Below, in pieces: positions 16,401-45,800 of a stretch of DNA of 64,000 bases. This DNA is from Amyelois transitella (lineage: Eukaryota > Arthropoda > Insecta > Lepidoptera > Pyralidae). The notes below the pieces were generated by a model. That model did no database searches. It saw nothing but the letters and a program-made list of their open reading frames with translations, and was not told the origin of the DNA. The position numbers and the translations under genes were made by a program. The stretch covers positions 9,052,001 through 9,116,000 of the forward strand of contig NC_083520.1 of assembly GCF_032362555.1 (NCBI RefSeq). Reading direction: 5' to 3'. Position 1 is the first letter of the stretch; every line of letters begins with the position of its first letter.

Positions 16401-19400
16401 GTGGTCCTTTTAAAAAGGCTCAGGGTCACTCAGCGAGCTAATGAGAGAGAGCCATGCTCGATGTTACTCTGCCAGATCGAATCAGAAATGAGGAGATCCG
16501 TAAACGAACGAAATTAACCGACATAGCAGCTCGAGCCAGCAAGCTGAAGTGGCAATGTGGCAGGGCACATTTCTCGAGGGCCTGATGGCAGATGGCTCCA
16601 AAAAGTCTTCGAGTGAATACCACGTAGTCAAAGGCCGGCCCCCCGCGAGCTGAACCGATGATAAGGTTAAGTCCGCAGGTAAATGTTGGATGCAGGTCGA
16701 CAACAGAGCAAACTGAAGGTCATAATCTTCAGCCTTGGATGTCCTAAGGCTGAAATGATGATGCAGGATACACTAATGTATGAAGACATATGATAGTAAT
16801 CACCCATGATGATGACAGTGCAGCCGGGGTCGGTGATCAGTCCGTCCCACAGAGACATGAACTGCGTTTTCATCATCGCTGTAGCTTCGTGGTCGTGTTG
16901 AGTGCGCGTGCGCAGGAATGACTCGATTTCATCTGAAAATAAGAAAAAAAATTGATTATCACACCATACACATTAAGCAATTGCAGTAGCAATTCACATA
17001 ATCACTTCTTTAGCCCTTGGGAGGTAGACAGGACCAACTGCCTTGAAAGATTTTGAAGACCAGGGTCAGCTGTTGGCCTTCAATTGAAATTGAGATTTAT
17101 CAATTGAATTGAAATTGAGATTCAAATGTAAAACATTTGAAAATCAAAGTAAAGAACTTCAGTGAACTTTTCAATTACTATAACTACATAATATAAAACG
17201 AAGTCGCTTCCCGCTGTCTGTCCGTATGTATGCTCAAATGTTTAAATCTACGCAACGGAATTCTCTTATAGATAGGACAATTCATGAAAAATGTTTTGTT
17301 GCATAACTTATGTTAATACTAGTAGCTGGTTGAACGAGCTTTGCTCGGTTTTTTGTTTTAGTAGAACATGTTTTTTGAAAATTAAATTTAGTATGAATTG
17401 CATACTAATAAAGTATAAATAATGTTCTTCGATCTTTCCGACATAATAATAAAAGAACTATAAACTGTGTCATATTCATTTTATGATATACTTGTCCGCA
17501 AACGATAAAACTATAAATTACATGGCTATTTATTGTTTTGTCATTTTCTACATTGAAGGATGCTAAAGCAAAAGATGCATTTATGTTTCTTATTTTTTTA
17601 TGAAATTCCTCCGAATATGGGTGACGGTTTAAAAAGAGACGTACTAATTCATAAATTTGAGGGCGGGTCTATAGTTACCTATGAAGACGATGCAAGGCTG
17701 CAGTTTGACGGCGAGACTGAACACCGCCGCCGCCAACTTCTGCGTCTCGCCGTACCACTTGTCGGTCAACAACGACACGTCGAGGTTGATGAAGCGAAAG
17801 TTCACTGAACTTAACCGGTACTATAACTACATAATATAAAACGAAGTCGCTTCCCGCTGTCTGTCCGTATGTATGCTCAAATCTTTAAATCTACGCAACG
17901 AAATTCATTAATAGATAGGACGATTCATAGAGAATATTTTGTTACATAACTTATGTTAATACTAGTACCTGGTTGACCGGTGCTCGGTTTTTTGTGTTTG
18001 GTAGAACGTGTTTTTTGAAAATTATATTTAGTATGAATTGCATACTGATAAAATATAAATAATGTTCTTCGATCTATAGTTACCAATGAAGACGATGCAA
18101 GGCTGCAGTTTGACGGCGAGACTGAACACCGCCGCCGCCAACTTCTGCGTCTCGCCGTACCACTTGTCGGTCAACAACGACACGTCGAGGTTGATGAAGC
18201 TCATATTGGCCTCCTTGGCAGTCGCCTTCGCTATCAGGGTTTTGCCGCAACCTGTAATGAAAATGTGCTGTTGAAAATATGCTTCACATTTTCAAATGTG
18301 TGGTTCCCGGCACCAGTACAAAAAAGAATAGGACCACTTCATCTCTTTCCCATGGATGTCGTAAAAGGCGACTAAGGGATAGGATTACAAACTTGGAATT
18401 CTTTTTTAGGCGATGGGTTAGCAACCTGTCACTATTTGAATCTCAATTCTATCATTAAGCCAAATAGCTGAATGTGGCCATTCAGTATTTTCAAGACTGT
18501 TGGCTCTGTCTACCCCGCAAGGGATATAGCCATATGTATGTATGTACATTTTCAAACATCAGAACAAAACACGATTCTGTCTGAATTTTATGGTGAATTA
18601 GGCACAATTGTATTCCGACATCGAGTATTGAATTAGTTGTGTCGTACCTACTATATGTATATGTAAAGAACCTCTCCTTGGCACTTGTATCACCGAAGTA
18701 ACAAAATTTTAAAAAATCTTGGTCGGAAATCAATTTTTGATATATTTTCGACATAATTTGTATTTGTATGGACTCAATTGTCTGAAATAAATAATTTTTA
18801 TTTTTATCATGGAGATTTTACAAACATTACAAACCTAGCTCTCTCTCTCTCAATATAGATACTCGCCCGCGCGAAACCTAACCATACTTCTCCCATGAGG
18901 ATTCTTGACTGACTGACAGGAGCATTAAGGGGAATCCTCTTAATGCTCCTGTCAGTCAGTCACATACACACATATCACTTTAAAAAAATTTTTTAGGTAC
19001 AACGGATACATAAGGTTTTAATTCACGCTTTGTTTGCAAAGAATTCATTACATACACACACTTACACATTATGATCACATCTTTATCCCTTACGGGGTAG
19101 ACAGAGCCAACAGTCTCGCAAAGACTGACCACGTTCAGCTCACGTTCAGTCAATCATTCTGTGACGATTTTTGATCTCAGTTATTCGATCATTGATGTTT
19201 TAAATAATCTGTTTTACGTATCTTGATCAAATTAAGGACGTCCTGGTAAAGGGTCAGGTCAAAAGTACCCGAAACCGCCGAGCTTGCATGAAGAGAGTTA
19301 TGAATGTGGATGAAGCGAAGGAAGTATGCAGAGATCGTGGCAAGTGGAAAGAGGTAGTCTCTGCCTAACCTTCCGGGAAAGAGGCGTGATTTTATGTATG

Positions 19401-22137: not shown

Positions 22138-24836
22138 GTCGAATAACCAGCAGTTAGATTATTGCAACAGAATTACGGAGCTCTTAATTTTTCACCAATA
22201 CTATTCGATTTTTACTACTTTTCAATATCTATATGAATCTAAAAAAATTCTTCATCTCATCACTATTTTTTTCTTCTGCACTGTCTGTTGCCAACTGTCT
22301 CCAAGAAAAAGGCGCTACATCGATACTTAAAAAGCGCCAGATATAACACCGGTATTAAAAAAAATCCCGAAAAGTAGTACTAAATCTAAAGGTAAATTCT
22401 GAAGAGCAAATAAACCTCTTTTTGTAAGGGCTAAGTTTTTTTCTAATTACCCTTAAATTTGGCAGATATACTGAAAATTGACGCAATGATAATAGACTGT
22501 GCGGGTCAGCATGGCACGGAAATAGTATTAAAACCGCTGCACTATAATGGCACGTGCTACGCCGTTTTATGGCGCCATCCACGGAGCTACTGAGCAAGCG
22601 AACGTTCAACATCGTCAAAAAGTCCCAGATTAAGCACCAAAAGCGCTAAGATATCATTTTTTAAATAGACAAAATGATGGGGTGAAAAGGCATATATCAA
22701 AAGTTTGAATTTTCCTTTTCACCCTATATTTTTGCGTTTAAAATTCAGACTAAGTTTTTAATTAGATTATAGCAATGGATATGAGTTAAATGGATCTATA
22801 TCAATCCCAGATAGAAATGGATGGCATTTAATGTTTTGTGCCATATTTTGCCACAAATGAAAGTATGCTTGGATTGGATTTATTTAATTTTATAGCTACG
22901 AAGTCTCATCGTCTGATCAGACATAAATGTATTACATTAATAATGACTGGTTGTCGGTATGTGATCTACCTACTTTTAGAAGTTGACGAGAAGAAAATGG
23001 TGCAGTACAGTTTGTTACCGCTTCTTCTGTACTGACGCTTTGGACGCGACAGTGCATTTATTTTGAAGAAATTTATTTGACGGCAACCAATGTTGCGAAA
23101 CCAAAAGATGACAATTATTAAGTGATGTTTAAATAACACAAAATAATGAAAATAAAATTGAATTTTAATTTACTATTGTTTATTAATTTCATACTCAAAG
23201 GCCTAACTAATGCTTTGAGCCTCTTTAACGATGATCCAGTTATAATAACAATTCATAGGCGTTTATAAAGAGATGAACTTTGAATTTTTTTTATTAAACG
23301 ATGGACTTGAGTCAAATAATATTTACATTATTGGCTTACAACTCATACGTGACCTTGAAATTCTATGCTTTTTTCTCTGTCTAATCCGTAAGGGGTAAAT
23401 ACGTGACATATGCGTGTTTATTAAAAGAATATGTAGTTGAAAATATTTTTATTTAAATTATAAAATATTACAATAATATATGTGTCTCAGTTACAAATTA
23501 CTGACAACCAATCCAATTAATGATGAAATAGCAGCAATGATTATTTTTTTATATCTTTTCAGACTTTTCGTCAAACAAAAGAGATAACAAATATTCATTT
23601 TAAATAAACTGATCTGAGGTACCTATTTTACAAATACCTGAATTAATACATTTCGTTAACTAATTACAATCGCTAATAATTAGATATACGATTTTATTTA
23701 CAATTATTTTTAAAGTCTTTCTATATTACACATACATCGTAAGTGATCTCTCATAACACTTAAAAATATTAAAATCTAAATATAAAATCAACTAAAAGTT
23801 TAGTACAATATTGAAATTCAATTAACATAGCGAAAAATTCAACAAATTATGTTTAAACATACGACACTTACAGAACTCTGCATTTGGAAAAAAAAGTTAA
23901 ATATATTTTTTTATTGCCACTTAAACTTTATACTGTTGCAATAAAGATTATTTTACATCATCAAGCTGATAAAAACATACGTCTATTAAAAGTTAAGAAT
24001 CATGTGCATAAAATAAAGGCAGAGAATAAATTCAACATAATCAATAGATTTTTTTGTTGATTCACTCGTTTTAATCAGAAGGCAAAGGGTACAAGCCCAT
24101 GCAACCAAGTAATTAGTAAACAATCTCTCTACCAATACATTTGCCATAGACAAATTATGCTAAAGGTTTTATTTTGATTTTTCCCTCGTCAAAGTGTGGT
24201 AAAGCCATACCTACGGCATAGATTTTTCGGTAACTTTTTTTTAAATCCTCTATCTCCTACTACTTAGCAAAAACCTCTTTACTCCCCTCTTTTCTTTCAG
24301 TCATTTATGTATAAAATTCCCTGTAATTATTTAACGCATTGACAAGACTCAAATGGCACATAAAAATCTACAACATTTAAATATAAACTCAATACAAAAT
24401 TACGTCATTAATAAAGAATACAAAAATCAATAACATCAAAAATCTTTGTAAAACAGTCTTATATTTGTTTTTTTTTACACAGACGAAGAGCCACGCCTTC
24501 GTTCTATGCTCTGTGGTCGTATATTAATACAATGGCAAATTATTCATAAATCTGACCATGAATTCAAAAAATTGTAGATTTTACTATATTTTACTGAAGT
24601 CTATAGATTACTCATAAATTTGTGTCTCAGATACAGACCATCCGTCAATCCACCCACATAATTATTTTATATCGCTCGAGAATACTATGTTTTCTTTTCA
24701 TTAACAATATAGCTATACTTCCTAAAGATATGTTCGTATGAATTTGTAAACTAAAAAACTTACGTCATCGACGTAAACCATACATGACAAAGTGGACATG
24801 AGAACTCTCTTTTCCACAGTCGGGTAAATTTGTGTG
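22138..24836. other. Intergenic region between the MFSD6-like gene and nmd
   Basis: AT-rich, with no recognisable gene. It must hold the nmd promoter (right of 22137) and the 3' end of the MFSD6-like transcript (left of 24837). The only clear repeat is the CAACCAATGTTG family copy near 22995-23160. Reading frames at 22355 and 22838 have no domain signal and the second overlaps this repeat. Confidence 0.55.
22995..23160 (+). repeat. Interspersed repeat (CAACCAATGTTGTGAAACC family)
   Basis: Extends from GTGCAGTACAGTTTGTTACC through GACGCTTTGGA and CAACCAATGTTGCGAAACCA to an AT-rich tail. It pairs with 30470-30660. Confidence 0.65.
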
Positions 24837-25624
24837 TTATCTGCTTTCCGTTTTCAGTGGTACCACAGTGTCATTATAGATGGCGTTAGGGCTCTCTTGG
24901 AGCATTTTCTCGCCTTCCTCTGGCGTTGGCGGTAGTTGTTTTGATTCTGTAGGGAAAAGGGGATATTGAGATGTAATAAATGGAGATTTCCTGTCACGTA
25001 GCATGGATAAGCTCCCAGACCTCAAAAAACACCAATAATGTAAGTTACTTATTTTGGTAAACTGTGTTCCATTGGCAAATAAAGATATTTTATTATTTTA
25101 TTTATTTAATACAACCCGGAAAATTGACAGTAGATTGATGATATCCATTACGTTCTCATTGCTAACTATGATTTTGTTTGATTTTAGTCCCTTTTTTTTG
25201 GCAAATAATGTGTCACTTTTTTTTTCAGCATCTTAAGTTTAAAGACATTCAAACTATCGTCACATACCTACGCATAACCGGCGCATGGCCGCCCAGGTTT
25301 ATGGTATACATAGATACATAAAATCACGCCTTTCCCGGAGGGATAGGCAGAGACTACCTTTCCACTTGCCACGATCTCTGCATACTTCCTTCGCTTCATC
25401 TACATTCATAACTCTCTTCATGCAAGCTCGGCGGTTTCGGGTACTTTTGACCTGACCCTATACCAGGACGATGATGTGATAATGATAATACGATCTTTTT
25501 AACCATGATCACGTTTGTAACCAATATCAACTTATCTACTTTGTGTTTTTTTGTATGTTTTACTCTTATGGTGCAATAAAGAGTTTATCTATCTATTTAT
25601 CTATCTTTCTATTTATCTATCTAT

Positions 25625-25656
<32 letters not shown>

Positions 25657-25677
25657 TTATCTTTCTATTTAGCTATC

Positions 25678-25708
<31 letters not shown>

Positions 25709-25954
25709 CTATTTATCCATCTTTCTATCTATCTATTTATCCATCTTTCTATCTATCTAGCTATCTATTTTATCTATTTATCTATCTATCTATTTATCCA
25801 TCTATCTATCTATTTATCTATCTATCTATTTATCCATCTATCTATCTATCTATTTATCTATCTATCTATTTATCTATCTATCTATTTATCCATCTATCTA
25901 TCTATCTATCTATCTACCTATCTATTTATCTATCTATCTATTTATCCATCTATC

Positions 25955-25985
<31 letters not shown>

Positions 25986-27400
25986 CTATTTATCCATCTA
26001 TCTATCTATCTATTTATCTATCTATCTACCTATCAACTGACCGCGTTCCCGCCCGTCCAGCCACGCGAACAGCCCGGCGTGCAGCAGCGCGCCGGCCGCC
26101 GCCGCGCCCGCCAGCGCGCGGAACGAGCCGCGGCCCCCTGCGCGCGAGTACAGCTGACCGCCCACCAGGGATCCTAGGGCGAATCCTGCAGTAGCATATT
26201 ATCATGTTGAACTTTTTCACATTGAAATGTGGCTTAAGTGGTTTGGTTCTGTAATGTGCTTATATTTAAAGATTATTTTTTTTTAGAAAAATATATAGGA
26301 CTTGACGTCCTATATATTTTCTTAATAATTGAAAAAAGCTACTATCTAATCTAACTATCATGCCATCCTTGGCGACGGCCAGGGATGGTATAATAATTAA
26401 CTGAGGATACTGAAAACATTTAGGCAACTGGATATGCAACCGTGATCCAATACGAATAAGGTTCCTTTGCAAAAGAAAGAAGTCGTTTCGTGTAAGAACC
26501 TGACTTATCCAATCCAGGACCATGGCTTAAGGTGCAGTGAATACCTCCAGACACAGGCGGCAATAAGCTTTTGTTGAGAAGCGCCTGGGGGGATAAGCAT
26601 CTGAGGGGATAAGCGCCCGGGGGGGACAAGCAACTGAGGGGGGACAAGCGTTTGGGGGAGGTATAAGCGTCTGGGGGAGGGATAAGCGTATGGGGGAGGG
26701 ATAAGCTTCTGGGGGAGGAATTAGCGTCTGGGGGAGGGATAAGCGTCTGGAAGAAGGATAAGCGTCTGTGGGAAGCGTAAGCGTTTGAGGGAGGAATAAG
26801 CGTCTGGGGGAGGAATAAGCGTCTGGGGGAGGAATAAGCGTCTGGGGGAGGAAAAAGCGTCTGGGGGAGGGATAAGCGTCTACGGGAGGGATAAGGGTCT
26901 GGGAGAGGGATAAGCGTCTGTGGGAGGGTAAGCGTCAGTGGGAGGGAAAAGCGTCTGGGGGAGGGATAAGCGTCTGGGGGAGGGATAAGCGTCTGGGGGA
27001 GGCACAGCGTGTGGGGGAGGAATAAGCGTCTAGGGGAGGGATAAGCCTCCGTGGGAGGGTAAGCGTTTGAGGGAGGGATGAGAGTCTGGGAGAGGGAAAA
27101 GCGTCTGGGGGAGGGATAAGCATCTGAGGGAGGAACAAGCGTCTGGGTGAGGGATAAGCGTCTGGGGGGAAAACGTGTTTGGAGCGGAAATAGGATAGAG
27201 TTGCCACTGTATTATCTGTAACCTATTCCCTCCAAATACGGTATAAAACGCGATATAACTGCAGACAGACCGACGCCGTCGTCCATGCCGGCGACGATGC
27301 CCTGCACGGTGGCGGAGTACCCGTCGGGCGCCACGTGCGCCGCGTACCCCACTATCGTGGAGTAGCACAGCGCGTACGTCGGCCCTTGCATTATTGACTG

Positions 27401-27434
<34 letters not shown>

Positions 27435-30400
27435 CATACATACATAAAATCACGCCTCTTTCCCGGAGGGGTAGGCAGAGACTACCTCTTTCCACTTGCC
27501 ACGATCTCTGCATACTTCCTTCGCTTCATCCACATTCATAACTCTCTTCATACAAGCTCGGCGGTTTCGGGTACATTTGACCTGACCCTTTACCAGGACG
27601 TCCTTAATTTGATCAAGATACGTTCGTCTTCCCACTCCGACCTTTTCCTCCACACTCTCCTTGTATATCTGCTTAGTCAACCATGTCATGTTATATATAT
27701 ATATAATCATGGCTATATACCTTGGGGGGTACACAGAGCCAACAGTCTTGAAAAGACTGATAGGCCACGTTTAGCTGTTTGGCTTAATGATAGAATTGAG
27801 GTTTAAATAGTGACAGGTTGCTAGCCCATCGCCTAAAACAATCCCAAGTTTATAAGCCTATCCCTTAGTCGCCTTTGACGACATCCATAGGAACGAGATG
27901 TAGTGGTCCTATTCTTTTTTTTTATTGGTGCCGGGAACCACACGGCACATATATATATATATATATATATATATAGTAAAATAATAATATAAAAAATTAC
28001 TTGCACTATACATACTACACATTAACAGCACTACCATTTCTTTAAGTCACGTCTGAGATAGACTTAGGCGCAGAAAAGCGCAATCTACCGTCGTAAAAAA
28101 ACTCAATTACGACCTTATTACAAGAATATTAAACTCAAAATCCGAAAATGACTCCTACCCTCTCGCTCATAATAACGTTTAATTCAGATCACAAGTTTAA
28201 ATGACGCACTCTCATCTTGATAATAATGTACCAAGTTTTTATTGACTTAATTATTTCTGAACTCTTTTTTTAATATAATAATAACTTACCTCGATGAACA
28301 CCAAATGCCAAGGGTTCTGTATGATCGATATAAGTGCCATGCGGACTCCGTAACAGAACAGTGAAAACGTTAGCGTGGTTCCGTACCCCCATCGTTTGAT
28401 AATTTTACCTGAAATCATATTATTAATACATACAAACACAAGAATTAGATTTTGGTATCCCACCGCTGCCCCCAATTTGAAAACAAAATTATATATTTTT
28501 TGAAAAACTAAAACCTGCATGAAATTTCATTATATCGTCTTAAACTAGCTACTTAAAAAATTGTGGGAATTGTTTTATAGTTCATTTATACCTATTTACA
28601 AAAAAAAAAGGTGTTAAAAGAAATAAGGAAATATCAATATATAATTAGTATTTACAAACAATATCTTTTGCGTTTTGCACTAGGATATAAGCTAGATTTT
28701 TACCCGAGTAATAGAAAAACAGCAGTTCCCCGATGAAACTCTGGCCAGCGACCACAACGCCCTCTATAAGCTTGATTTTAGCCGTGTGGCCTGTTTCATC
28801 TGCTAGATCTTCTAGAAACCTGCGAACAAAACAAAATCCCAGAGTAAGAGAAGGAAGGTCAGATTACTATTAACGAGATAAAGGAGACCAAAACCTATTA
28901 ACAGGGTCAGGGAGATCAGATGACGCTTTTCTCCATTAACCTCTAGATCGTGGTCACAAACAGATCCAGAATCCAGAGTCTTCATAGAAAGCCACAACCC
29001 ACACAAATATTAAGAACAAGCCAGTTTTCAAACTCACCAAAACATATAATAAATGATGAAACTGTCGAAGGTTCCAGCGACCACAGCGAATGTTATAAAC
29101 AATAGTACCCTCGGTATCTTGAGGACGTCCAATAGAGCCTTGCCAGAATCTTCTGGACTTGTTAGCGATGGTAACTGAAAATAAAAACTCGTATTTATAG
29201 ACTACAATAATAATAGGTATTATTACGGTGTAAGCTTATATTAGGAACCCTTTAAAAGGAAATGACAAGGAAAGAAATATTATGTGATTATGTGAGAGCT
29301 TGCAAATGAAAATAAAAATAAGTGAACGCCATCCATAGACTTGCTAGTATTCCCGCGCAGTTTGAAAAACGAACGCAGAAAGCAAGATTTAGTGAGCGCT
29401 CGACACTTAAACGTCAGTGGCCGCTTAGCCACCATGAAGGCCGGTGTGAAATCCTACATCTGACCAAGTGTCAACAAGCCAGCAATAATGCAGTCAATAT
29501 CCTGTTAAGTATCGTGACCTTATAAGAAAATTGAAATAAAAAAAATCCCTGTGGCGACATCTCTACGCCACAAGTTGCAAAAATAAAATCACGCGACGCT
29601 ATCAGTCAAAAACAGCGAAAAACCTAAATCGTGCAAGCAAAGATTTCACGATTGAAGCAATATATACAACCTCCGACACAACATCGTTGGAGCCGCGGTT
29701 CCCCAGGCATTACACCTAGCCTGGCGGAAGATCTTCCCTTTGGTGGAGGTTGAGCCGAATCATCGCTCTCGCTACACCCCTACTATACAGACTGATATTT
29801 CCTGCCGCTATTTAAATAACGAACACAGAACGCAATATTTAGGTACCTATAGATAGTGAGAGCTCGACACAGGCCATATTCGCGATACCTAGTTGCCACT
29901 ATAAAGACACGATTAAGTTTCAACCGGCCAGTATTATCGCGGTTAATACGCAGGGTTTTGAACATCGGACATTTGCAAATCGAAATTAAAAAAAAAACTG
30001 GTCGCGTCCTACACAGTCTTAGTAATCCCGCGCAAATTTAAAAAACGAAAACAAATAAAGCATGGTAGATTGTAGTTGAGTGATTACTTACAGTAAGTGC
30101 TCGACAGCTGAACAAATCTACGATTGTAGCCACTATAGCCACGATGAATGCCGGTGTGAAATCCTTCACATCTCCACGTGACCAAGCGTCGACCAACCAG
30201 CCTCCTAGTAATGCAGTAACCCCGTATCCCGCGGTGCCCCAAGCCCTTTGAGCCCCGTATTTTGAACCGCGTTCTGGGCCTGTAAGTAAATGAACATGTT
30301 GGAAGTATTTAAAAAAAGTTTTTTTTTTACTTAGTGTCATCTCTCCTAGTGTGCCTTCTACATATATTGTGATCTTGCTCTCAAGACCTGAACAGGCGGT

Positions 30401-33400
30401 AACCACTTACAATGTATTCTTTCATCTACATTTCCATTCTAAGCTTGGATTGTGACGTTGACGTTTTTTAAGAAAATGCTGCAGTGCAGTTTGTTACCGC
30501 TACTTCTGCACGGACGCTTTGGAAGCGGCAGTAAACCTAAGTTTAAAGTAATTTATTTGACGTCAACCAATGTTGTGAAACTAAAAGATATGACAAATAT
30601 TAAGTGATGTTCGAAATGTCCCATTTGATCAACAAAAAAAAAATAATTTGATTTTTTTTTAATTTTGATTAAAGCTTTTATATTTTGACATGAAAAATTT
30701 TGCATCTACAACTGCGTTCATAACCTCCCTGGTGACAATGACAACACCGCAGTTGTATATACATATTCTGTTAACAGTCCACTCGAGTTCAACTATATTT
30801 TTTATATAAACGAGGCAAACAACCGACATTATACATACAGGCGTTTTTCAAAGACAAAGACTTAGTTGAATGCTTAACTCACCCAAAACATCAAAGCAGA
30901 CCGCATCTCCAATGCAGTTGGCAACATTGAACGCGACGGTACCCACACACATAAGTACGACAAACGCCCAGAAAGTTGCAGTCATATAGAAATTGCTACT
31001 TTCTACCGTCTCAACCTCACTCACACTTGATAAACTATCGATCATTGAAACATTCTGTTTCCAATACGTCGAATTCTTCAGATCATCTTTCAAAACGTTA
31101 TTCGAACTACTCTTAACTTCTCTCTTATGCCTAATCTCAGTCGATTCATCGAAACATAACAAATTGCAGTCTTTTATCGGAACACACGTTATCTGTCCCT
31201 CTCTTACGTCATCGAAATTCATGTGTAGGAGGGAGCACGAGTTATTGCTCACAGCCTCGCCAATATAAACTGTGTTGACGAATGTGGTATTCGAAAGATA
31301 AAATTCGAATTTTTCATCGTCATCTTTGGAGCAATTCCATTGGCAGGAATATTTTTCTAAAAGAGTATTGTTGTCGTATTTCTTTACGTATATGGTGTCA
31401 TTGAGGTTGTATATGTATTGCAATAGGGGTTGTTCTGGTGGCTCGGAGCTCGGCAGGAACCAGAGGCAGCAATAGGATCCAGTCATGATCGTGATCAGTA
31501 GCATGAATACTAGTTTTCTGTGGGTCTGGAAAAGGATATGAAGGATTTTTATAAGTAAAAATTACATACATACACATAGTCACGTATATATCCCTTGCGG
31601 GGTAGACAGAGCCAACAGTCTAGAAAAAGTGAAAGGCCACGGAACCACACGGCATATGTTTGAATGTGTATATTTGTATGTATTGCATACATATTAGACA
31701 AGCAGAGCGGATTCTCCAACCACAAGTATTAATACTTAAATGGAGATCCCATTCAAAAATGGGATACTGTAAAGGAGTTAAACATATAAACTTTCTTCTC
31801 ACCGGCCAGAAGTCCACAACGTATCCGAAGAGGGGCTTCGCCGCCGCCCACAGCAGGGGCAGCACCGCTGTCACCAGCCCCATGACGGCTGGAGAAATGC
31901 CCAATTGTTTGCCGAACACGTTCATTTGAGGCAGAAGGGGGCCGAGCGCTGGAGCCAATGGAAACAAGGAAGATGTTAGGTACATACATACATACATATA
32001 GTCACGTCTATATCCCTTACGGGGCAGACAGAGCCAACAGTCCCGAAAAGACTGAATGGCCACGTTCAGCTGCTCGGCTTAATGATGGTATTGATATCCA
32101 AATAGTGACAGGTTGCTAGCCCATCGCCTAAAAAAGGATCGCAATTTTATAAGCCTATTCCTTAGTCTTAGTAGTGTCGCCTTTTACGACATCCATGGGA
32201 AAGACATGGAGTGGTCCTATTCTCTTTTGTATTGGTGCCGGGAACCACACGGCACTAGGTGTTAGGTAGAACAAAATACGAGTTCGTGCTTTTACAGCCA
32301 TGGATTCAAGGCTCTTCGAAATTAAGTTACATGTTAGTATTTTTGTCCATACGCTTCCTACGGACAATAGGTAATTGTTTCTGAAGCGATAAGGGTAAAT
32401 TTTTATAAAAGGTAATTACTCTATACTCGTAGAAGGTGCAGCACGGTCGATAGAAGGAGTACATACATACAGACATATGTTCACGTCTATATCCCTTGCG
32501 GGGTAGACAGAGCCAACAGTCTTGAAAAGACTGATAGGCCACGTTCAGCTGTTTGGCTTCATGATAGAATTGAGATTCAAATAGTGACAACCTGTCGCCT
32601 AAAAGAAGAATCCCAAGTTCATAAGCCTATTCCTTAGTCGCCTTTTACAACATTAATGGGAAAGTAATGGAGTGGTACTATTCTATGGGGTCCGGTAACC
32701 ATACATCATAATTCCTAATAATGTATTGCTCGTAGGTTATCAGTTACCATCACGTACACATCCTAATCACTGTCCCGAGGTACATAAAAACTCTTTAGTA
32801 GATACATAAAAACTCCTTAGTACATAAATACTCCTTAGTACATAAATAGGCATCATAAGAACATAATACTCCTTAAATAAAATGAGATTTGAATCTGAAA
32901 GCCCATTTATACTTTACGCACTCAACTTCGAATCCACTATTCACCAACATACCATTAAGAAGATTAAAGGCCATTTGATAACATAAAATTGCAGGTGTTA
33001 GTTTGTTAATTGCTTTATATATCGTGTAGGTATGATATCGCCATAGCAAATGTTTTTAACGGTTTTCATAAAACGCGTGTTTAATGTAAATGTTTCAAAA
33101 AAGGCTAATAAACTTGGGATTCTTCTTTTAGCCGATGGGCTAGCAACCTGTCACTATTTGAATCTCAATCTATACTAATATTATAAAGCTGAAGAATTTG
33201 TTTGTTTAAACGCGCTTATCTCAGGAACTACTGGTTCGAATTGAAAAATTCTTTTTGTGTTGAATATACCATTTATAGAGGCAGGCTTTAGGCTATATAA
33301 CATCACGCTGCAACTATTGGAAGCGAAGAAATATTGAAGAATGTGAAAAAAACGAGGAAAAATATTCATCCTTAAGGGCTTCAATGACGCCTATAATAAC

Positions 33401-36400
33401 TATTCCACGCGGACGAAATCGCGGGCACAGCTAGTTCTATTATTAAGCTATACAGTTGAACGTAACGTGGTTTTAAAGTCTTCAAGACTGTTGGCTCTGT
33501 CTATCCTACAAGGGATATAGAAGTGACTATATGCATGTATGTGGGTTTTTTTTGGACTATGTGAACATAGTTTGCCTGAGGAGTGCGCGTGCTTATAAAG
33601 GGTCTCCGGGTGGTGAAGAGGGCGCCACAGGGGATGACCCTGTCCTGAGTAAACTCAGGAACTACTGGTTCTACTAACTACTGGATTCTACGCGCTAAAG
33701 CGCGTTCAAACAAACTTCAGCTTTATAATATTAGTTTAGATGAGCCAATCGGAGGGCAAAAACTGATGTATCAAATATTTTGACCGTGGCAATAATAACG
33801 ACGTGTGCGAGGAAGTTCAGATCATTGCCAAGGCCCCCAATTTGGAGCCGACTACACCGACTTCCGACCATTTATGTGGTGAATTGACGACCATTAAAAC
33901 ATATAGGTACATATATCGTGATGCCCGATTCTGTTTTGGCACATTGCATCTAGCAACACAAAATGTATTTCAAGATTCAGTTTGGTTATTGGTAAAATTA
34001 TTTTATAGCGCCGTGTGGTTCCCGGCACTAATAGAAAAATAATAGGACCACTCCATCTCTCTCTCATGGATGTCGTAAAAGACGACTAAGGGGTAGGCTT
34101 ATAAACTTGGGATTATTCTTTTAGGCAATGGGCTAGCAACCTGTCACTATTTGAATCTCAATTTTATCTTAAAGCCAAATAGCTGAACGTGGCCTATGTC
34201 TTTACAAGACTGTTGGCTCTGTCTACCCCGCAAGGGATATAGACGTGATTATATGTATGTATGTATGCCAAATTATTTTCACTCCATCTTTTGGTCATAA
34301 CACAACTATTGAAGAACAACATACATACATTATAACCTCTCATTATCCCTTGTGGGGTAGACTGAGCTGACTGAATTGAAAAGACTAAAAGGCCACATTC
34401 ATGCCTTTATGATGGCATTAATATTCAAAGTGCTATATTGAGTGCATTTACAGATAATAAAGTCATAAAAAAAAACTGAGAAACGCCAATTAATTTACAC
34501 GAAGCAATCGAGTGACAACAGCCATTATCTCAGTCAGATACAGACAGATAAAATATAATCTTAGTATGGTTATAACTGTCGTAGACAAAGCAAATTGTGT
34601 TCATTATGTTCCTTACAGTCTGTTCATAAAATATAAATAGATGTATTGTGGCTCAATTAAAATTATCTTATCTTTTCATCTGTTGGGAAACATTATGTAT
34701 ACTTGGCACTAATTGTAATTATAATCCTAATAATGATAAATGGAAAAGTTTTCGAAAACAAATTGTTTTGAGTAACTTGCTGAAGTAACATACATACACT
34801 ACATCTTTATCCCTTACGGGGTAGACAGGGGTAACAGCCTAGGAAAGACTGAAATGCCACATTTAGCTTTAGGAATGCGCATACCACACACATGTTCTTA
34901 CACTTATCATTAAGAGATTATTTACCCATCAACTAGATAAATAAACAATAATAACATAATAATAAATAAATATTTTTTTCTTAACAAATAAGGTGACAAA
35001 AACAGGGTAAAAAAGGTTGCAGGTTCTATTATTAAGATAACTGCTATAAAAAGTAGTTCAATAGTTTTATCAACTTATATCTATAAAATCGCTATATATA
35101 AGACTGCCCTTTACAGGGATAGGACATTATGCAATTTAATATGTAATATATTTGTTTGATTTTATAAATCACTCTTTTGTTCCTTGTTATCTTATACTAG
35201 CAATACCCTTTTTTTTAATTAGCGAATAAGTTGGTAAAATATCAATCCTGTTGAGCTATGCAATTTAAAAAAAATAATATGGACTTACTTGACTAACGTG
35301 AGGGAAAATATTGTGATGAAACCTGCATATTGAAGCAACTGGATGTGTTACCATGAGCTATTCAAAACAGGTAAGGTAGCCCTGCAATGTTGAGTCGCTT
35401 CGTGTAAGAACCAGACTCACCCAATCCAGGGTTCATGGTCAATATTTAAACCCCGGATTTCTCTCCAGAGTGGTGACAATGCAACCAGGACTTAAACCAA
35501 GAAAAAGAAGACTGTGAGCTAGTGTTCAACTTCTTAAAATTCCTCACCCTAAAATAGATAAACAAGAAAACTATATTTTTAAGATGAATTTCAAGTCTGT
35601 AAAGAACATTTTTTAGCAACTCATAGAAGTACCTATTAGTTACATCAATTTCTATTTTAATCTCAATTCTATCATAAGTGCATACAGCTCAATGTGGCAT
35701 TCCAGTGTTTTCAAGACAGTTGGCACTGTCTACCCCGCAAGGGTGTACTATATGTATATGTTACAGTTAAAACTAGTTCTAACTAGGGAAAACGCGTTCT
35801 ATCTAAAAACTAATTTTAACTGTAACATATATATGTATTCATAGAAATACATATTTTAATTAATTACAAAAATTTATTCTACTCTGGGCCCTTGTTAACT
35901 GTACTAGTGAAAGTGCAAGTAGTTATTCTAGTCTTTTATTTCTATTTTATTCTGCTTTACACATTGTTTTATTTCCTCGTTGGAATTAATTACTAATTTC
36001 TTTTTTTTTATTAGCATGGAGATTTTGTCCTGGTTGCACCCTAGCAAGGGAGAGTATTGCCACAATCTAATAGATATTTGAAGTTGGAACCAAGACAGAA
36101 ATAGCATTTCTAGTAAGATTTTTTATATTTAATTTTAGCCTTGATTGAAACAGTAAAAAAATAATACTTAGGAGAGCAAATGTCCAAAGTTTCAAAAAAT
36201 GCTTTTAAAGTGTTTGTTTTGGTAAAACATGATAAGTATTTATTGAATAATTAACCTTAGTGGAAAATTTAAAATTAGGTTAAAGAAATATATGAGATGG
36301 TATTTAAACCTTATACCCCACTATCAAACAAAGAAAACTTACCAGCGAAGAAGAAAAAGAAGTGGACCTTAATGGGTATTAAACCTCTGTTTATTTTGAA

Positions 36401-36406: not shown

Positions 36407-36894
36407 TTTGCTGCAATATTAAATTTATAGGTACCTAAAAACAATTATTACAGACTACTATCACGGACTCGAAGTTCATTGACCGACAGCACACATATTC
36501 GCAAATCACAATCACAACTGCTTCGGCCTGAATAAAATTAAATAATCGAGGCTACATGTTTAGTAGCGTAAGCTCATAAAACTGCTATTTTTATTTACAT
36601 TACAACAGTCAATATTGTCAAACAAGTGTCAAACTTAACCTGAACAGTCAGCTTCACCTTAGTCATATTGATTTGACTTTGACTGACGTTTTTGAATCCA
36701 TTGGTCCCCACAATTTTTCCTTTTTTACCCCAATTTTTTGAAATTACTCCACGCTTGATATTCTATTAATCAATGTCATTGTAACTTGTCACGTGGGGAA
36801 AACATTGTAAACACTTGTAAATACTACGGAAATAACCTCAAAATATTTATAATCATTATTAATATTATAATATATATAAAACAGTGTTATTATA
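36407..36894. promoter_or_regulatory. Shared (bidirectional) promoter region of the MFSD6-like gene and NOM1
   Basis: Only 488 bp separate the two divergent start codons, so both 5' UTRs and core promoters must fit here. A TATATATAAAA run lies about 25 bp before the NOM1 ATG, too close to be its TATA box unless the 5' UTR is tiny. No CpG-like enrichment is visible. Core elements are not identified. Confidence 0.6.
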
Positions 36895-39800
36895 ATGAAG
36901 AATAAAAAAAGATCACCGCCAGTTTCCCTTGTTAGCTCAAGGAAAGTCTTGCGTAAACAAAAACGGCAGGAGAAGAAGATACACAGAAAGGAGCACTACT
37001 TAAAGAAATCTTTGCCTGAGACGACTAAATATGAACCAGGAAAGTTCGTCAAAAGGCCGATAGATGCCATTGATATTGAAACTGAAGTAAAGGTAATCCT
37101 TCTCGAAATAATTTAAAAGTTCTTCCTTGATTCTTCCTCTTTGTTTTCTAACCAAAAACTGTTTCAAGAATGTACATGTATAGGTGATAATCATCACATC
37201 ACAACCTTCTTTTGTCCTCCGCACCTTCTGCAACACTCTTACGCATCTATTGTAAATTGTTTAATTCAAATTAACCTATTTTACAATGGGACCAATACAA
37301 TCATGTTGTGTATTTAGAAAATAAAACTTACATATGAAAGTTACCCTTTTCAGAAGAAGAAGCCAAAGCTGCAACCATCAGTCCAAGATGTTCTTACCAG
37401 ACAGATACAGAAGGAAAAGAGTGAGACGGAGAAATTGAAATCACAAATGGAGAAACAGAGAAAGAAGATGCTAATACAAGCCAACGAGGATGAAGACAAA
37501 GTCATAAAGAAACTGGAAAAACAGCTGGGCCTCAATAAAACTAAGAATAAGAACAATTTCTTTTCTGATGATGGACTGGACTGTATCCTTTTTAAATACT
37601 CAAACATCACATCTCTAGTATTCTTCCAAGAGACAGAGCTTACAGTCATAAGGCTAGCAACCTGTCACTATTTGAATCTTAATTCTATAATTAAATGCTG
37701 CAGCTGAATGTGGCCTATCAGTATTTTTAAGACTGTTGGGACATGTCTACTACACTATATTTATAAACGTGATTATATGTATGTAAATTAACTTTATGGA
37801 TATTGCCACTTATTTGTTGTCTCTTGTGAAACATGACTCACCCAAGCCACCAAGCCAGGATCTATGGTCAAGTCAAGGGGGTACCCGGGACTATAGCCAG
37901 ATGGAAAAAGACCATAAACTGTCAACGGGGAAATCTTTTCATGCCTAATATTAATTATAAATTACATTTCAAACTTAACTCTTATTATCAGACGTCTTAG
38001 AAATCTGTGACAGAGCTACGTCTGAGCAGATAGTAGCTGCTGAGAAGCACCTCGCCAGCGTCCAAAACGAATCAGACTTTGAGGAAGATCTGGCCGTGGT
38101 CACTGGAAAGAAACCTAAGGAAACTAAAGATGATGAAGAAAATGATGAAAGTGATGTTAATGAAGAGAAAAGTGATGATGAACAAGACAGTGATGACTTA
38201 TCAGGTAGCGATGATGAAGATGATAATTCTGAAATGTCAGAAGATGGTGAACAGTCAGATGAAGAAGAAATTTCCGAGGATGAACCGGAAGGTAAATTTT
38301 GTAATGTCTTTTATATTCTTAAGAGATATTTTAAGAAGTTGTGTTGGATCACCACATATATTCTAAAAGTGACCAAAAGGTTACAAATATTTTACAATGC
38401 TTTGTGTAAAAATAGTCTTTCAAAAGATTTCAAATTTAAATATTTCTGATTGTATGTAAAAGATTGCTCTTGTAAGTAAAATTAAGTCCTCATTTACCGT
38501 GTGTACAAGTGATCGTGTATGTATGAATAACTAGGTGTTAAGAGTCTGCTTTATCACCAATTAATAAAGTACTTACTGTAAAAAGATGTGAGCTTTTTAC
38601 AGTAAATACGTTTTTTTATAAGATCTTTATTTTGTTAAAGTAATTAAAACTATTCTTTTTTTGTTTACAGAAGTGCCTACTAAATCACAGAAATCACAAA
38701 ACCCAAAATTAAAAAAAGAGGGTAAAGAAGTAGAAAACAAATTAAATGGTAAATCAACAAAAACAGAAAAACCTAGCAAGAAGGAAAGAGTTATTTCTGA
38801 AAATGATTTACACAATGTATTTAGTGAAGATGAAGTGTCACATTTGTCTGGTGACGATGATTTGGACGGATTCTCGGGTGATGAATATGATGATGATGAA
38901 ACAAAACAGGAATCAGAGGAGAGTAAAGAAAAACCTGATGTTTGGGAGGATATTTACGGACGGAAGAGGGACAAAGAGGGCAATATTATAAAGGTAAAAG
39001 AAATTCAATCAGTTTCTCTTAGATACTTCATACAGCGGTCTTGACAAACATACCTTGGTCAATGAGGCGCGATTTTTTGTATGTTCGTATGTGTATTGCA
39101 TCATACCCTGCCCGCGCAAAAAACTAACGCTGTTTCGCTTTTTATTATGACGTAAAACGGGACAGCGACAGTTTTTTCGCACGGTAAAAACAGTTTTTTT
39201 TTATTGTAATATAGGCAAACTCACACTTAGTAAGTGTGTTATTGAAGATTACGTATTTTTTTGTACTAATTCATATTTATTTGTTTTTAATTGCAGGAAG
39301 AGAAAGGCATTTACATACCACCACATTTGAGGAACAAAGACACGACATCAGATAAGGATATGGTGCAACTTAAGAGACAGGTCAAAAGTGAGTACCTATA
39401 TTTTTTATATTTATAAAATCGTCGCGACTCCCGTCTGACCACCGGGTTTTTCACAGATACTAAAAAGCGAGAGGAGCATTTTATTCTGTCGAGTTACTAA
39501 CTCGACTATTAATTTATTACTATAACTACACTCGATAATTTTATTTTTCTTTCCTTAACACAATTCCTGAACTATACTTTGGGTGTAGTTAAGTCTGTGT
39601 GATCATGTAACGGAAGCAGGTAGCTACTCGTATAGTCAATGGCGCAACTCAGTGCACGTGGCGCTCACTCAGTTGTTGATAGAGACGACTGTGTGTCTGT
39701 ATGTAACTCTGGACCGACTGAACATCTATACTAATATTATAAAGCTGAAGAGTTTGTTTGTTTGTTTGAACGTGCTAATCTCAGGAACTACTGGTTCGAA

Positions 39801-42800
39801 TTGAAAAATTATTTTTGTCTTGAATAGAACATTTTTCGAGGAAGGCTTTAGGCTATCTACGTCTGGCTAGGCTATAACATCACGCTGCAACTATTAGGAG
39901 CTAAGAGATAATGGAAAATGTGAAAAAACGGGGAAAATTATTCATCCTTGAGGGCTTCAATGATGCCCAAAATCACTATTCCACGCGGACGAAGTAGCGG
40001 GCACAGCTAGTTATCCATATATAAATTCCAGGCGTGCTGAACAAGCTGACAGGCAAAAACTTGCACTGGGCTTGCTTATATTCGGAGAACAGCCGTCACT
40101 CAGTGAACACGGCGCTCACTCAGTTGTGGGTAGAGGCGACTGTGTGTCTGTCTGTAACTCTGGACCGGCTGAACATTATCCATATATAAATTCCAGGCGT
40201 GCTGAACAAGCTGACAGGCACAAACCTGCACTGGGCCTGCACCACAATAGAGAGGCTATATTCGGAGAACAGCCGTCACTCAGTGAACACGGCGCTCACT
40301 CAGTTGTGGGTGGAGGCGACTGTGTGTCTGTCTGTAACTCCGGACCGGTTGGTGGCCGAACATGCCGCGTTGGTTGAGGTCTTACATGCCAACGTTGGGA
40401 ATGAAATAGGTGAGTGGAATAAAAGTTTGATATAATCGTAATTTTTTTTGCACCATTTTTTTTTTATTGCAAAGCAAATTCACGTTTATGTTTTTACTGA
40501 TATTTTAAATGTCAAAGTTTGTCTATTAAGATTTGTCGGCTTAAGTTCTGAACCGATTTTTATGAAATTTTAAATGTGGGTAGTTCAATACACAAGGTTT
40601 GTTTTTCTTATCTAAGGATTTTAGTGAAATATTCAAATAGACTTTGTTTTTTTTTAACATACATACATATGATTAAGTCTATATCCCTTGCGGGGTAGAC
40701 AGAGCCTACAGTCTAGGACAGATTGATAGGCAACATTCAGCTGTTTGGCTTAATGATAGAATTGATCAATGGAGATACAAATAGTGACAGTTGCTAGCCC
40801 ATCCCCCTAAAAGAAGAATCTCAAGTTTATAAACCTATACCTAAGTCGTATTTTACGATATCCATGGGAACGAGATGGAGTGGTCCTATTATTTTTTTAT
40901 TGGAACCAAATACATATATGTATGCTTTTTTATAATTTATAAATATATATATGTATTATTTTTATTTACAGGGGCTCATTTTCTCCAAGAACTGTCAAAG
41001 AAATTCGATGTAATGATGCTTCATCCACAACCCCAAGAAGACAAGAGACTGGACAATCTAGTGTCCTGTTTAGCTCACCTTTATTGTTTCAAGGTAATTT
41101 TACATTATATATTAAGTTATTGAGTTGTTTACGTCCGAGATTTAGGTATAGGATTATCTCTGTCGCATGTATGCCGTGTCGTAAGAGATGATTGAAGAAA
41201 AAAGCACTTTCAACTAATGCAACAACTATAATCCAAGGTTTTTGAAAATATCTTCCTATTGCTATTGGAATCTCATGTCTATCATTAAGTCAATCAGCTG
41301 AACATGGCTTTTCAGTTTTTTGATGACTGTTTTCTCTGTCTACCCCGCAAGGGATATAGACGTGATATAATAAGTATGTATGTATATTTTTAAGGTGTGG
41401 GTAGAGTCATCATCCAAATTATTAAGTTTGTTTCGGTTTGACGTTACCTTTAGAAAGGAGCCTGGGGTGTACGGGGACTGATATGCCTATCAGTCTTGTA
41501 AAGACTGATAGACCACATTCAGCTTAAAAGAAAAATCCCAAGTTTATAAGCCTATCCTTTAGTTGCTTTTTACATCATCCATGGGAAAGAGATGGAGCGG
41601 TCCTATTTTTTTTTTGGTGGCGGGAACCACACGGCACCTCAAGCATCACACCTAGCCTATCGGAAGATCATCCCTTTGTTCCGTTCGAGTCCGAACCATC
41701 GCCACCGCTACAAAAATTGCCCCTTCAATTTCAGATATACCACGCGTCTCTTCTGTACGACATTCTCGACAGACTGCTAGAAGAACTGACGGAGAAGAAT
41801 ATAGAGTGTGTTGTGGTAGCGCTGAGAGTGGTGGGCGGGGTGCTGCGGAGGGAGGAGCCCCTCGCGCTGAAGGGCTTCATACAGCGCACTCAGACCCGGG
41901 TGACGAAACTGAGCGAGGAAGCTGTTGCTGGGTAAGTAACTATCGTATTATAAATATAATAAATAAATATATACGGGACAAATTACACTGATTGAGTTAG
42001 CCTCGAAGTAAGTTCGAGACTTGTGTTACGAGATACTAACTCAACGATACTATATTTTATAATAAATACTTAGGTATATAGATAAACATCCAAGACCCAG
42101 GCCAATCAGAGAAAGTTCTTTTCTCATCATGCCATGGCCGGGATTCGAACCCGGGACCTCCGGTGTCACAGACAAGCGTTCTACCGCTGCGCCACAGAGG
42201 CCGTCAAATCAATTATGACGAGTGACAGTACTAAAAAAAATACATTTTGCAACAATTATAAAGGAAGAAAACAAGGATAGTATCATGCGTCTCTCTCGAA
42301 GAGATTCTTAACTGCTTATTTGTGATGAGGAAGCAGAAAGGAAGCCGTTTGAAAATTAATCTTAATATTAATTACAATATAGCACACAATATGACGGCCT
42401 CTGTGACGCAGCGGTAGTACACTTGTCTGTGTCACCGGAGGTCCCGGGTTCGAATCCCGGTCAGGGCGTGATGAGAAAAGAACTTTCTCTGATTGGCCTG
42501 GGTCTTGGATGTTTATCTATATAAGTATTTATTATAAAATATAGTATCGTTGAGTTAGTATCTCGTAACACAAGTCTCGAACTTACTTCGAGACTAACTC
42601 AATCTGTGTAATTTGTCCTGTTTATATTTGTTTATTTAAAAAAAAAGAAAAAAAAAATAGTTATTTTTTCTCATTCACAATTATATTTAAGAATTGTATG
42701 CTTTATTGCAAAACGTTAAGATCCATTTTTGATAGGTTATATATATATATAAGGTATATGTAAAATGACGTATAAAAGTGTCTCAATAATCCGAGTTGTT

Positions 42801-45800
42801 TTGTAAAAACCATAAATGGAGATTTTTCCTAAAACCTCAAGAAAATTTATGATTCATTAATTTTTTAAACAAACTCTTTGATTCACAGATCTCGAATAAA
42901 GTTCCTTCTTGAAGTTCTGATGGCCGTTAAGAACAACAACTTGACCAAAATACCCAACTACGACCCGTCATACGTGGAACATTTGCGAAAACTCTCCCGC
43001 GGTATCGTACGCCGGGGTAATTACGTCACGCCCTTGAATATTAGATTGGAAGACTTGTTGAAAGGTAAGATTTGTCTTCCTCCTATTTTGGGTCATATGT
43101 TCTCTGGAGTTCTCCGAGTTGCGACTCCCCTCTGACCTCCGCAGCTTTGCAGGAGAACCTGTATTGGATCATACATAAAATCACGCCTCTTTTCCGGAGG
43201 GGTAGGCAGAGTCTACCTCTTGCCACTTGCCACGATCTCGGCATACTTCCTTCGCTTCATCCACATTCATAACTCTCTTCATGCAGGCTCGGCGGTTTCG
43301 CGTACTTTTGACCTGACCCTTTACCAGGACGTCCTTAATTGGATCATGGTTAAATACAACTATTAATTAGTTGTCCTACCATACAGAAATGGACATCCTA
43401 GGATTAAAGAGAGTGGCATTAGAAAAAAAAATTTTTTTAACTATGTTTTGGTTGGTTGGTGATAAAAGCAACATAGTAACTATCACTGTCAACATCGACC
43501 AATCAGAAGGCCGTGTGCCGTTTTAAAATTAACAGCTCGTCTGTAATTGGTCGAACCGTTTAGAACCTTACAAATGGACATGATGAAAGGCAGGGGATAT
43601 AGATGTGATTAAAGGTTATGTTATATTATGTTACAATATATACGTGTACAAATCGATTTTCAAATGAAATGATGAAAATGATTATACATACGTGAAATCT
43701 ATATTATTATCCATATATTTTCAGCGGACGAACGCGGAAAATGGTGGGTAGTCGGTTCAGCGTGGGAGGGCAATCAAGTGAGGCAGGAAGAGAAGAATGT
43801 GAAGTTGCCGCCCACCACGGACCAGAAGTTGTTGGAATTGGCGCGAAAACAAAGAATGAATACGGACGTCAGGAGGAGCATATTCTGTGTTATTATGGGT
43901 GCTGAGGTGAGTAATATATCTCGATTAATAAGAATTAAATACAGTAAAATTAAATTTAAAGCTTAATAAAAAGAATGTGGAGCTACCGCCCACCAAGGAC
44001 CAGAAGTTGTAAAAATTGGCGCGAAAACAGGGAATGAATACGGACGTCAGGAGAAGCATATGTTTGTGTGTGTGTGTGTTTTATTTTTTTTTATAATATA
44101 AAACGTTTTAACACGTCAAGTTCTTATGAAAAGCCATTCACTGTCATCTGAATTATACAAAATGTATTATTTCTCAGTCACACACAGTCTGTGAAAGTTT
44201 TATATGTGGTCTTATCGACGTAGTATCCTAAATACAATCTTGAAAAATGAAATAATTAATAAATATATACGGGACAAATTACACAGATTGAGTTAGCCTC
44301 GAAGTAAGTTGGAGACTTGTGTTACGAGATACTAACTCAACGATACTATATTTTATAATAAATACTATACATATATTAACATCCCAGACCCAGGCCAATC
44401 AGAAAAAGTTATTTTCTCATCATGCCCTGGCCGGGATTCGAACCCAGGACCTCCGGTGTCACAGACAAGCGTACTACGAGTACCGCTGCGCCACAGAGGG
44501 CGTTAAAATAAACAAATTATTCCAAAACATTAACAGCCATTTTTTATATATCTTCATAATGACGTTTAAAAGTGAGGACGATTTTTATAAAATCTTACTC
44601 TCATCTGTATCATTGTATTACATTGTATACATATACATACATTCATACATAAAATCACGCCTCTTTCCCGGAGGGGTAGGCAGAGACTACCTCCTTCCAC
44701 TTGCCACTCTTCCACTTAAATATATATATATACACCTATATATATATATATTACAGACACTTTGACTCAAACTATATAATTATATAGTTTTAATCGAAGT
44801 GTGATCGTAGTTTTTATCTGTTAATTTTTTTGCCAGGATTACATGGACGCGTTCGAGAAACTTCAGCATTTGGGCCTGAGAGGTCAGCAGGAGAGGGAAA
44901 TCATTCACGTTTTATTAGCGTGCTGTCTTCAAGAGAAATCATACAATCCGTATTACGCTGTGCTTGCGCAGAAACTGTGCGACACCGATAGAAAATACCA
45001 GGTATGTTATATATCTTATTTTCAACCTATTTACACATATATACTTCATGCATATAATCTCGTCTTTATCCATTACGGGGTGGTCAGAGCTGACAGTCAG
45101 ACAGCTGTATGGCCTAATGATGGAATTGAGATTCAAATAGTGACAAATTTTAGCTAGCTCGTCGCCTAAAAGATGAAAGATTGAGTTAGTTTATTTAGAA
45201 ATTGAGTTACAAAAAAATTCCATGGTTGACTACCTACAATTTGCACAGGAAGAATAGCAGCTGACACACACTATATTTTTTACTTCGCTACAAGACCTTG
45301 CATTAATGAATGTATTTATTTATTTCTGGAGGCAACTATTTTTATTATAATTTAAATATTTATTTATTTAACAGGCAAAGCCAGCTGGCATATATATGCA
45401 TATGTATGCTATAATTTGTTTGGTTAGCAAAAATCAGCAGATTTTTATTGTGAAATATTTTTATTTTATTTTCCTAAAATATAGTGCCTTTCATTTTATT
45501 ATTTCTCTCCTCTTCTGTCTTATTTAGTGTATACAGTATATTCCTGAACGTCTTCGTCTATACTTCATACAATTTGTCTTAAAATAAACTGATTTTGTTC
45601 ACAGCTATCGCTACAGTTCTCTGTATGGGACAAGATCAAAGAGCTGGAGAATCTGGACAAGCAGAACGCCACAAACCTGGCTATGTTGCTCGTTCACCTC
45701 ATCATGGGGAAAGGGTTACCTCTCTCTGTCCTGAAGGTAATGATCATCATTCTTCTTACTCCTGCCGATGATCTCGGTTACATCATCACCTCTCTGGTGA

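Follow-up and report, generated by a model that had tools for sequence, protein, structure and literature searches.

The stretch of the Amyelois transitella genome analysed here (64,000 nucleotides, in the following called the window; NCBI RefSeq assembly GCF_032362555.1, 327 Mb in 33 contigs; contig NC_083520.1, C16:9052001-9116000) contains three neighbouring genes, nmd, an MFSD6-like gene and NOM1, in which partial copies of exons lie in introns beside the exons they resemble. These copies are very probably the remnants of ordinary tandem duplications of 100–400 bp, which occur genome-wide and are filtered by purifying selection. Wherever its flanks are readable the duplicated unit crosses one exon-intron boundary and leaves the gene intact, and a copy carries at most one native splice site, none of them both.

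Genes and exon copies in the window

The protein encoded by nmd is an AAA ATPase of the ATAD1/Msp1 type: the spliced frame is open over 383 amino acids, it matches the Pfam family AAA, and its best solved relative is the outer mitochondrial transmembrane helix translocase (E = 2.6e-110). The concatenated NOM1 exons contain the MIF4G and MA3 domains (Pfam), and in the gene between the two one exon scores above the cut-off of the Pfam model MFS_1_like (E = 2.3e-7). The gene names given in the initial annotation of this stretch, which was made from the sequence alone, agree with these domains.

For the exon scan, 32 exons of four genes, with limits that are partly approximate, were compared with their 3-kb flanks. 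Strong copies (E ≤ 1e-5) were found for 4 of the 32, namely nmd exon 4, one MFSD6-like exon and NOM1 exons 6 and 10, all on the same strand as the gene, and at this threshold the 32 exons gave neither an inverted copy nor a match in flanks read backward. Weaker matches (E 0.002–0.05) were obtained three times for the last nmd exon, between NOM1 exons 3 and 4 mutually, and once as an 18-nt inverted match. By alignment the six copies reported earlier (one of nmd exon 4, two of the MFSD6-like exon, two of NOM1 exon 6 and one of NOM1 exon 10) do lie at their positions and in gene orientation, each next to its parent exon on the intron side, as is characteristic of partial tandem exon duplication. 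They had been described as copies of single exons, but the units of nmd, the MFSD6-like gene and NOM1 exon 6 include flanking intron as well.

The nmd exon 4 pair

The following features make up this pair:

18084..18251, minus strand: nmd/ATAD1 exon 4, functional, in the open spliced frame and holding the Walker A motif GCGKT
17668..17795, minus strand: partial copy of nmd exon 4 with its donor, lacking acceptor and Walker A
17155..17435, minus strand: copied intron portion of the unit (original 17798–18075)
17436..17667, minus strand: 232-bp segment present in the second unit only, with AGA at both ends

The unit extends from 18200 within exon 4, takes in the donor and reaches about 17798 in the intron; the copy starts 2 nt further on. 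Its two parts have diverged very differently. In the exon part (18200–18073 versus 17795–17668) 127 of 128 positions are identical, the sole difference being synonymous (ATT/ATA), whereas the intron part (18075–17798 versus 17435–17155) shows 251 identical positions, 26 mismatches and 5 gap columns. The pair is thus a mosaic, with 1 of 118 exon sites differing versus 26 of 284 intron sites (9%; Fisher P = 0.0015). Two runs without any mismatch, of 115 and 64 sites, exceed what an even spread of differences would give (P = 0.002 for the longest, P = 0.0003 for both jointly). A neutral copy beside a conserved parent would be expected to show about 5–7 differences in the exon part (P between 0.009 and 0.03, depending on the factor assumed, and P = 0.03 when the last 21 intron sites are excluded). 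As far as can be judged from the two sequences, this mosaic suggests gene conversion between the tandem exons, which would account for it best. Selection acting on the copy is a possible but less likely cause, as neither the acceptor nor the part with Walker A is present in it.

The earlier claim that the events differ in age is borne out by the range of decay, but nmd should not simply be taken as the youngest: with 9% divergence in the intron part and a mosaic pair, ranking ages by identity is unsafe here. The 232-bp difference is probably a deletion in the first unit, because AGA bounds the segment on both sides. Separate insertions of a transposable element were also considered as the source of the likeness between the intron parts, since about 85 nt of the intron-part copy are the tail of a dispersed repeat. 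This origin was rejected: in a 264-kb pool, matches outside the locus cover at most 89 of the about 280 nt, and the deletion-like AGA ends of the 232-bp difference also contradict it.

Two further sequences lie in or near this region. A repeat of about 250 bp with CCCTTGCGGGGTAGACAGAGCC (e.g., 18298–18546) is very frequent in the window and occurs on many contigs, and a long open frame on the minus strand inside an nmd intron (13554–15092) looks like a reverse transcriptase.

Copies of the MFSD6-like exon

30092..30280, minus strand: MFSD6-like exon (exon 4 of the initial annotation), functional, carrying the MFS_1_like match; donor GTAAGT
29776..29994, minus strand: copy A, the most decayed; exon part 29855–29916; donor lost
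29326..29545, minus strand: copy B; exon part 29391–29502; donor lost; intron flank duplicated too

Copy B is clear. Its alignment with the exon (30229–30092 versus 29502–29391) has 96 identical positions, 15 mismatches and 28 gap columns, a score reached by 0 of 400 shuffles, and it was found in the scan with E = 1.1e-12. Copy A was listed by no BLAST scan; aligned with the functional exon it has 44 identical positions, 12 mismatches and 7 gap columns, and 5 of 400 shuffles reach this score. Its region aligns better with copy B (29326–29545), with 150 identical positions, 46 mismatches and 47 gap columns (0 of 400 shuffles). Copy A, being weak against the functional exon, is the least certain of the six. 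The units have intron beyond the exon in common, as seen from the alignable flank, and an interspersed repeat (29587–29768) sits between copies A and B.

Near or within the same gene there are also a 4-bp microsatellite of about 112 copies (25586–26034) and a 19-bp minisatellite of about 30 copies (26606–27168).

Copies of NOM1 exons 6 and 10, and older arrays

40197..40409, plus strand: NOM1 exon 6, functional
40011..40175, plus strand: copy 2 of exon 6, lacking a donor; 21 nt of intron with an identical acceptor, then the 5′ part of the exon
39725..40010, plus strand: interspersed element at the junction of copies 1 and 2, flanked by A and T and with ends of Helitron type (TC..CTAG); sister copy at about 33169–33434
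39647..39724, plus strand: copy 1 of exon 6, exon fragment only, identical to copy 2 at 70 of 78 positions and to the real exon at 61 of 70
43724..43906, plus strand: NOM1 exon 10, functional
43971..44069, plus strand: partial copy of exon 10, with an in-frame stop; a GT run follows and the donor is absent
11552..12240, minus strand: old tandem array of the end of the last nmd exon (with the stop codon) and 3′ untranslated region (UTR), with direct repeats and gapped alignments

The copies of NOM1 exon 6 lie upstream of the parent exon, and in copy 2 both the acceptor and the 21 nt of intron before it are identical. The alignment of 40176–40351 with copy 2 (40011–40171) has 154 identical positions, 7 mismatches and a 15-nt in-frame gap. 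Of the 7 codon changes 5 are synonymous and 2 are not, which by rough estimate was judged not significant, and coding selection on copy 2 was therefore dropped.

The element at 39725–40010 in NOM1 intron 5, which we take to be Helitron-like from its hallmarks, has no target duplication and sits exactly at the A|T of GAACA|TTATCC. The same site is intact and empty at the junction between copy 2 and the real exon 6, and the element is therefore younger than the exon 6 duplications.

In the case of NOM1 exon 10 (43793–43890 versus 43971–44069) 87 positions are identical, with 11 mismatches and 1 gap; 3 codon changes are synonymous and 7 are of other kinds, the last two of these resulting from a 1-nt shift.

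The array at the last nmd exon is a fifth and older one that was absent from the initial annotation. Its direct repeats of 47–53 nt are 79–81% identical, and it is backed also by the weak exon matches and by wider gapped alignments. There is a candidate for a sixth array in nmd intron 5, upstream of exon 6 (15619–15950), which is weak and partly overlaps dispersed sequence. Further along the window an uninterrupted frame of 879 amino acids on the minus strand (52054–54690) encodes a transposase with DDE_1 and HTH_psq domains.

Local hotspot or genomic background

The window was compared with 20 other stretches of 10 kb, 6 of them adjacent to it and 14 on C1–C7 at round positions chosen unseen. 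Simple and dispersed repeats were masked before arrays were counted, which left 50.1 kb in the window and 165 kb in the controls, and overlapping or chained pairs, such as three in L013, were grouped by hand into one array. The window then yields 5 direct arrays plus a single inverted pair, and the controls have 8 direct arrays (L010, L013, L016, L021, L022, L023, L025 and L027) and 2 inverted pairs. The two densities do not differ significantly (P = 0.165), at low power. Taking window and controls together, direct arrays outnumber inverted pairs 13:3 (P = 0.021 with the hand grouping of pairs). Two of the control arrays are young: L023 contains at 5105–5330 a perfect tandem duplication of 112 bp with 2 bp of microhomology, a fresh instance of the background process, and L025 a fresh one of 132 bp in which two adjacent bases differ (98.5% identity). 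To the right of the window, in L013 (3826–5344), several diverged direct repeats of 80–110 nt lie near an exon that looks PTEN-like.

Two sets of control exons were scanned as well. The first consists of 34 kinase exons without internal stops, taken from 145 among the matches listed in a kinase-domain search in which 130 of 534 candidates were scored; 20 of these exons had 900-bp and 14 had 600-bp flanks, and one of them, L036, was included knowingly for its overlapping rows. Since 600-bp flanks miss the MFSD6-like match of the window, the 14 exons with the shorter flanks are a slightly weaker test. The second set consists of 20 segments of the control stretches that are coding-like, their coding status being predicted, with a few flanks cut by the stretch ends. 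From 22 segments picked by codon score 18 were kept, 2 were dropped (one reverse transcriptase-like, one doubtful) and 2 were swapped for overlapping frames at the same places. Counting overlaps of Pfam models in the kinase search as duplicated exons was tried and dropped, as the copy in L043 described below has no row of its own there.

Two control exons have strong partial copies, built like those in the window. For the kinase exon L043 (on C17) a same-strand copy, 75% identical over 96 nt, lies about 0.4 kb downstream, and donor and intron are alignable. For the coding-like segment in L021 (on C4) a 67% identical copy begins 22 nt downstream and ends in a donor. This segment, which looks like a HECT ligase exon, gave no match in Pfam. 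As for weak matches, L032 gave one of 25 nt in direct orientation (E = 0.03), L055 one of 36 nt in inverted orientation (E = 0.009) and a second segment of L021 one of 32 nt (E = 0.005). Strong partial copies are thus found in 2 of 54 control exons versus 4 of 32 in the window (Fisher P = 0.19), and in 1 of 34 when the kinase set is taken alone (P = 0.19).

The initial annotation had called four events in about 27 kb unusual, had offered as the cause either a process that makes this locus prone to duplication or a feature of the whole genome, and had named the rate of exon fragments in flanks as the check. Run on this sample, the check gives an excess over the background that is not significant either by arrays or by exons, at low power. 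The eight control arrays and the exon cases on C17 and C4 speak for the genome-wide option. It is unlikely that tandem duplication is more frequent in the 27-kb block for some local reason: the point estimates are about twofold (arrays) and threefold (exons) above the controls, but neither difference is significant, the interval was picked since the copies were there, and the six neighbouring stretches together contain only 2 arrays, in L010 and L013. At this low power a mild local excess may still be present.

Origin of the copies

Tandem duplication as a genome-wide background process would produce the copies as follows. One breakpoint of the duplication would lie in an exon and the other in the neighbouring intron, and after duplication one of the units would complete a normal exon while the other half-exon stays in the intron. 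Because it has only one splice site, this half-exon would not be spliced in and would decay harmlessly. Duplications that lie wholly within an exon, or that include one entirely, would in most cases upset the protein and would be removed by purifying selection, and to judge from the anatomy of the copies this is why only partial ones are seen. Units that span a donor are predicted to leave the copy downstream, and those that span an acceptor to leave it upstream. In the six exon cases (four in the window, L021 and L043) the copies are downstream in five, for NOM1 exon 10 with a presumed boundary, and upstream in one, NOM1 exon 6. In the case of nmd, gene conversion would have homogenised the exon pair afterwards.

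Copies that bear exon sequence may in addition be over-represented because they stay recognisable for longer: with a conserved parent exon, exon copies diverge more slowly than two intron copies do from each other. In a simulation with 25 trials per point the detectable time of exon versus intron copies was 0.27 versus 0.17 for 100-bp units and 0.30 versus 0.19 for 150-bp units, an about 1.6-fold difference.

Several points weigh against this explanation. All five arrays of the window touch an exon, which under random placement has P = 0.008 (genic sequence taken as 12–47.4 kb). The 1.6-fold bias in visibility may be insufficient for this, and the remaining exon contact may be due to chance, given just five arrays, or to a genuine preference. 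The control exons contributed two cases only, and the array in L021 was already known before its segment was included. The unit of NOM1 exon 10 has no recognisable intron part, so that the crossing of a boundary is assumed there. The nmd exon pair is too alike for a dead copy next to a 9% diverged intron, unless there was conversion or selection. And finally, the absence of dispersed copies holds for the nmd exon copy and the NOM1 copies within the 264-kb pool.

Alternative explanations

It is very unlikely that the copies function as alternative or mutually exclusive exons, in which case use of the nmd copy would yield an ATAD1 variant lacking Walker A, and the NOM1 exon 6 copy would provide a twin acceptor. 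In favour of function, the nmd copy has a single synonymous difference in 118 sites, an intact donor and just upstream, as read by eye, a candidate in-frame acceptor, TTCAG; in NOM1 copy 2 the frame is kept, with mostly synonymous changes, an in-frame gap and an identical acceptor. However, no copy has both native splice sites, so the combination of splice sites and a matching open frame that is expected of mutually exclusive exons is found in none of them. The TTCAG candidate lacks a pyrimidine tract, NOM1 copy 2 when read on into the real exon hits TAA at 40187–40189, the NOM1 exon 10 copy contains a stop codon, the MFSD6-like copies have many gaps, and identity of paralogous exons is equally produced by gene conversion.

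An assembly error in which alternative haplotypes were joined in tandem deserves just as little credence. The nmd pair does look like two alleles, with 99% identity in the exon, 91% in the intron and one large indel, but a 9% difference in introns is high for alleles. The other copies differ by 4–35%, in two arrays an interspersed repeat lies between the copies, and the window is free of N.

Exon capture by a transposable element, e.g., a Helitron, that dropped the fragments nearby is scarcely credible in spite of the Helitron-like element between NOM1 copies 1 and 2 and the repeat between the MFSD6-like copies, for captured fragments should be dispersed and lie within element ends, the NOM1 element postdates the duplication, its empty site being the junction sequence, and the tested fragments (the nmd exon copy, both NOM1 exon 6 copies and the NOM1 exon 10 copy) have no further match in the 264-kb pool.

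Comparison with known systems

Several known systems resemble the copies described here. Tandem exon duplication (PMC9013439) likewise gives local same-strand exon copies in introns, many of them unannotated, but its surveys are aimed at exons that are possibly spliced, whereas the copies described here are partial. Internal gene duplication with intron gain (Gao and Lynch, 2009, as cited in PMC4974935; PMC2891723) also involves short intragenic tandem duplications, some of them crossing a boundary, but here no new intron is seen: the parent exon persists and its copy stays in the intron. Mutually exclusive exons with competing structures (PMC6071210) similarly stem from duplication of an exon with part of the adjacent intron, but none of our copies is a complete exon. 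In the titles and abstract openings among the matches listed by the literature search the pattern is absent for moths, which is no proof of absence.

With respect to frequency, PMC9013439 reports that exonic nucleotides with a homolog of at least 80% identity in the extended gene make up 2% in human, 0.08% in fly and 0.06% in worm, and cites a 2002 survey (its ref. 22) according to which about 10% of animal genes contain exons duplicated in tandem. A like figure for the window is 371 of 6416 nt (5.8%), obtained by different methods and in a window that was chosen because it contains the copies; the control exons have no strong match at 80% identity or more (75% and 67%). An unusual rate in this species is therefore not claimed.

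Implications

On this explanation a cluster of exon fragments in introns would not call for any special local process: the geometry of boundary-spanning duplications makes them harmless, and the exons make them visible. Annotators should be cautious not to call such fragments alternative exons. More speculatively, and to our mind rather improbably, short tandem duplications could be unusually frequent in this lineage, several percent of its coding exons having a boundary-spanning fossil half-exon beside them, which would be a datable neutral record and a supply of twin splice sites, with some of the copies (such as that of nmd) kept alive by gene conversion. If such a frequency of several percent holds genome-wide, the fragments could serve as a gauge of short tandem duplication and of gene conversion in this lineage.

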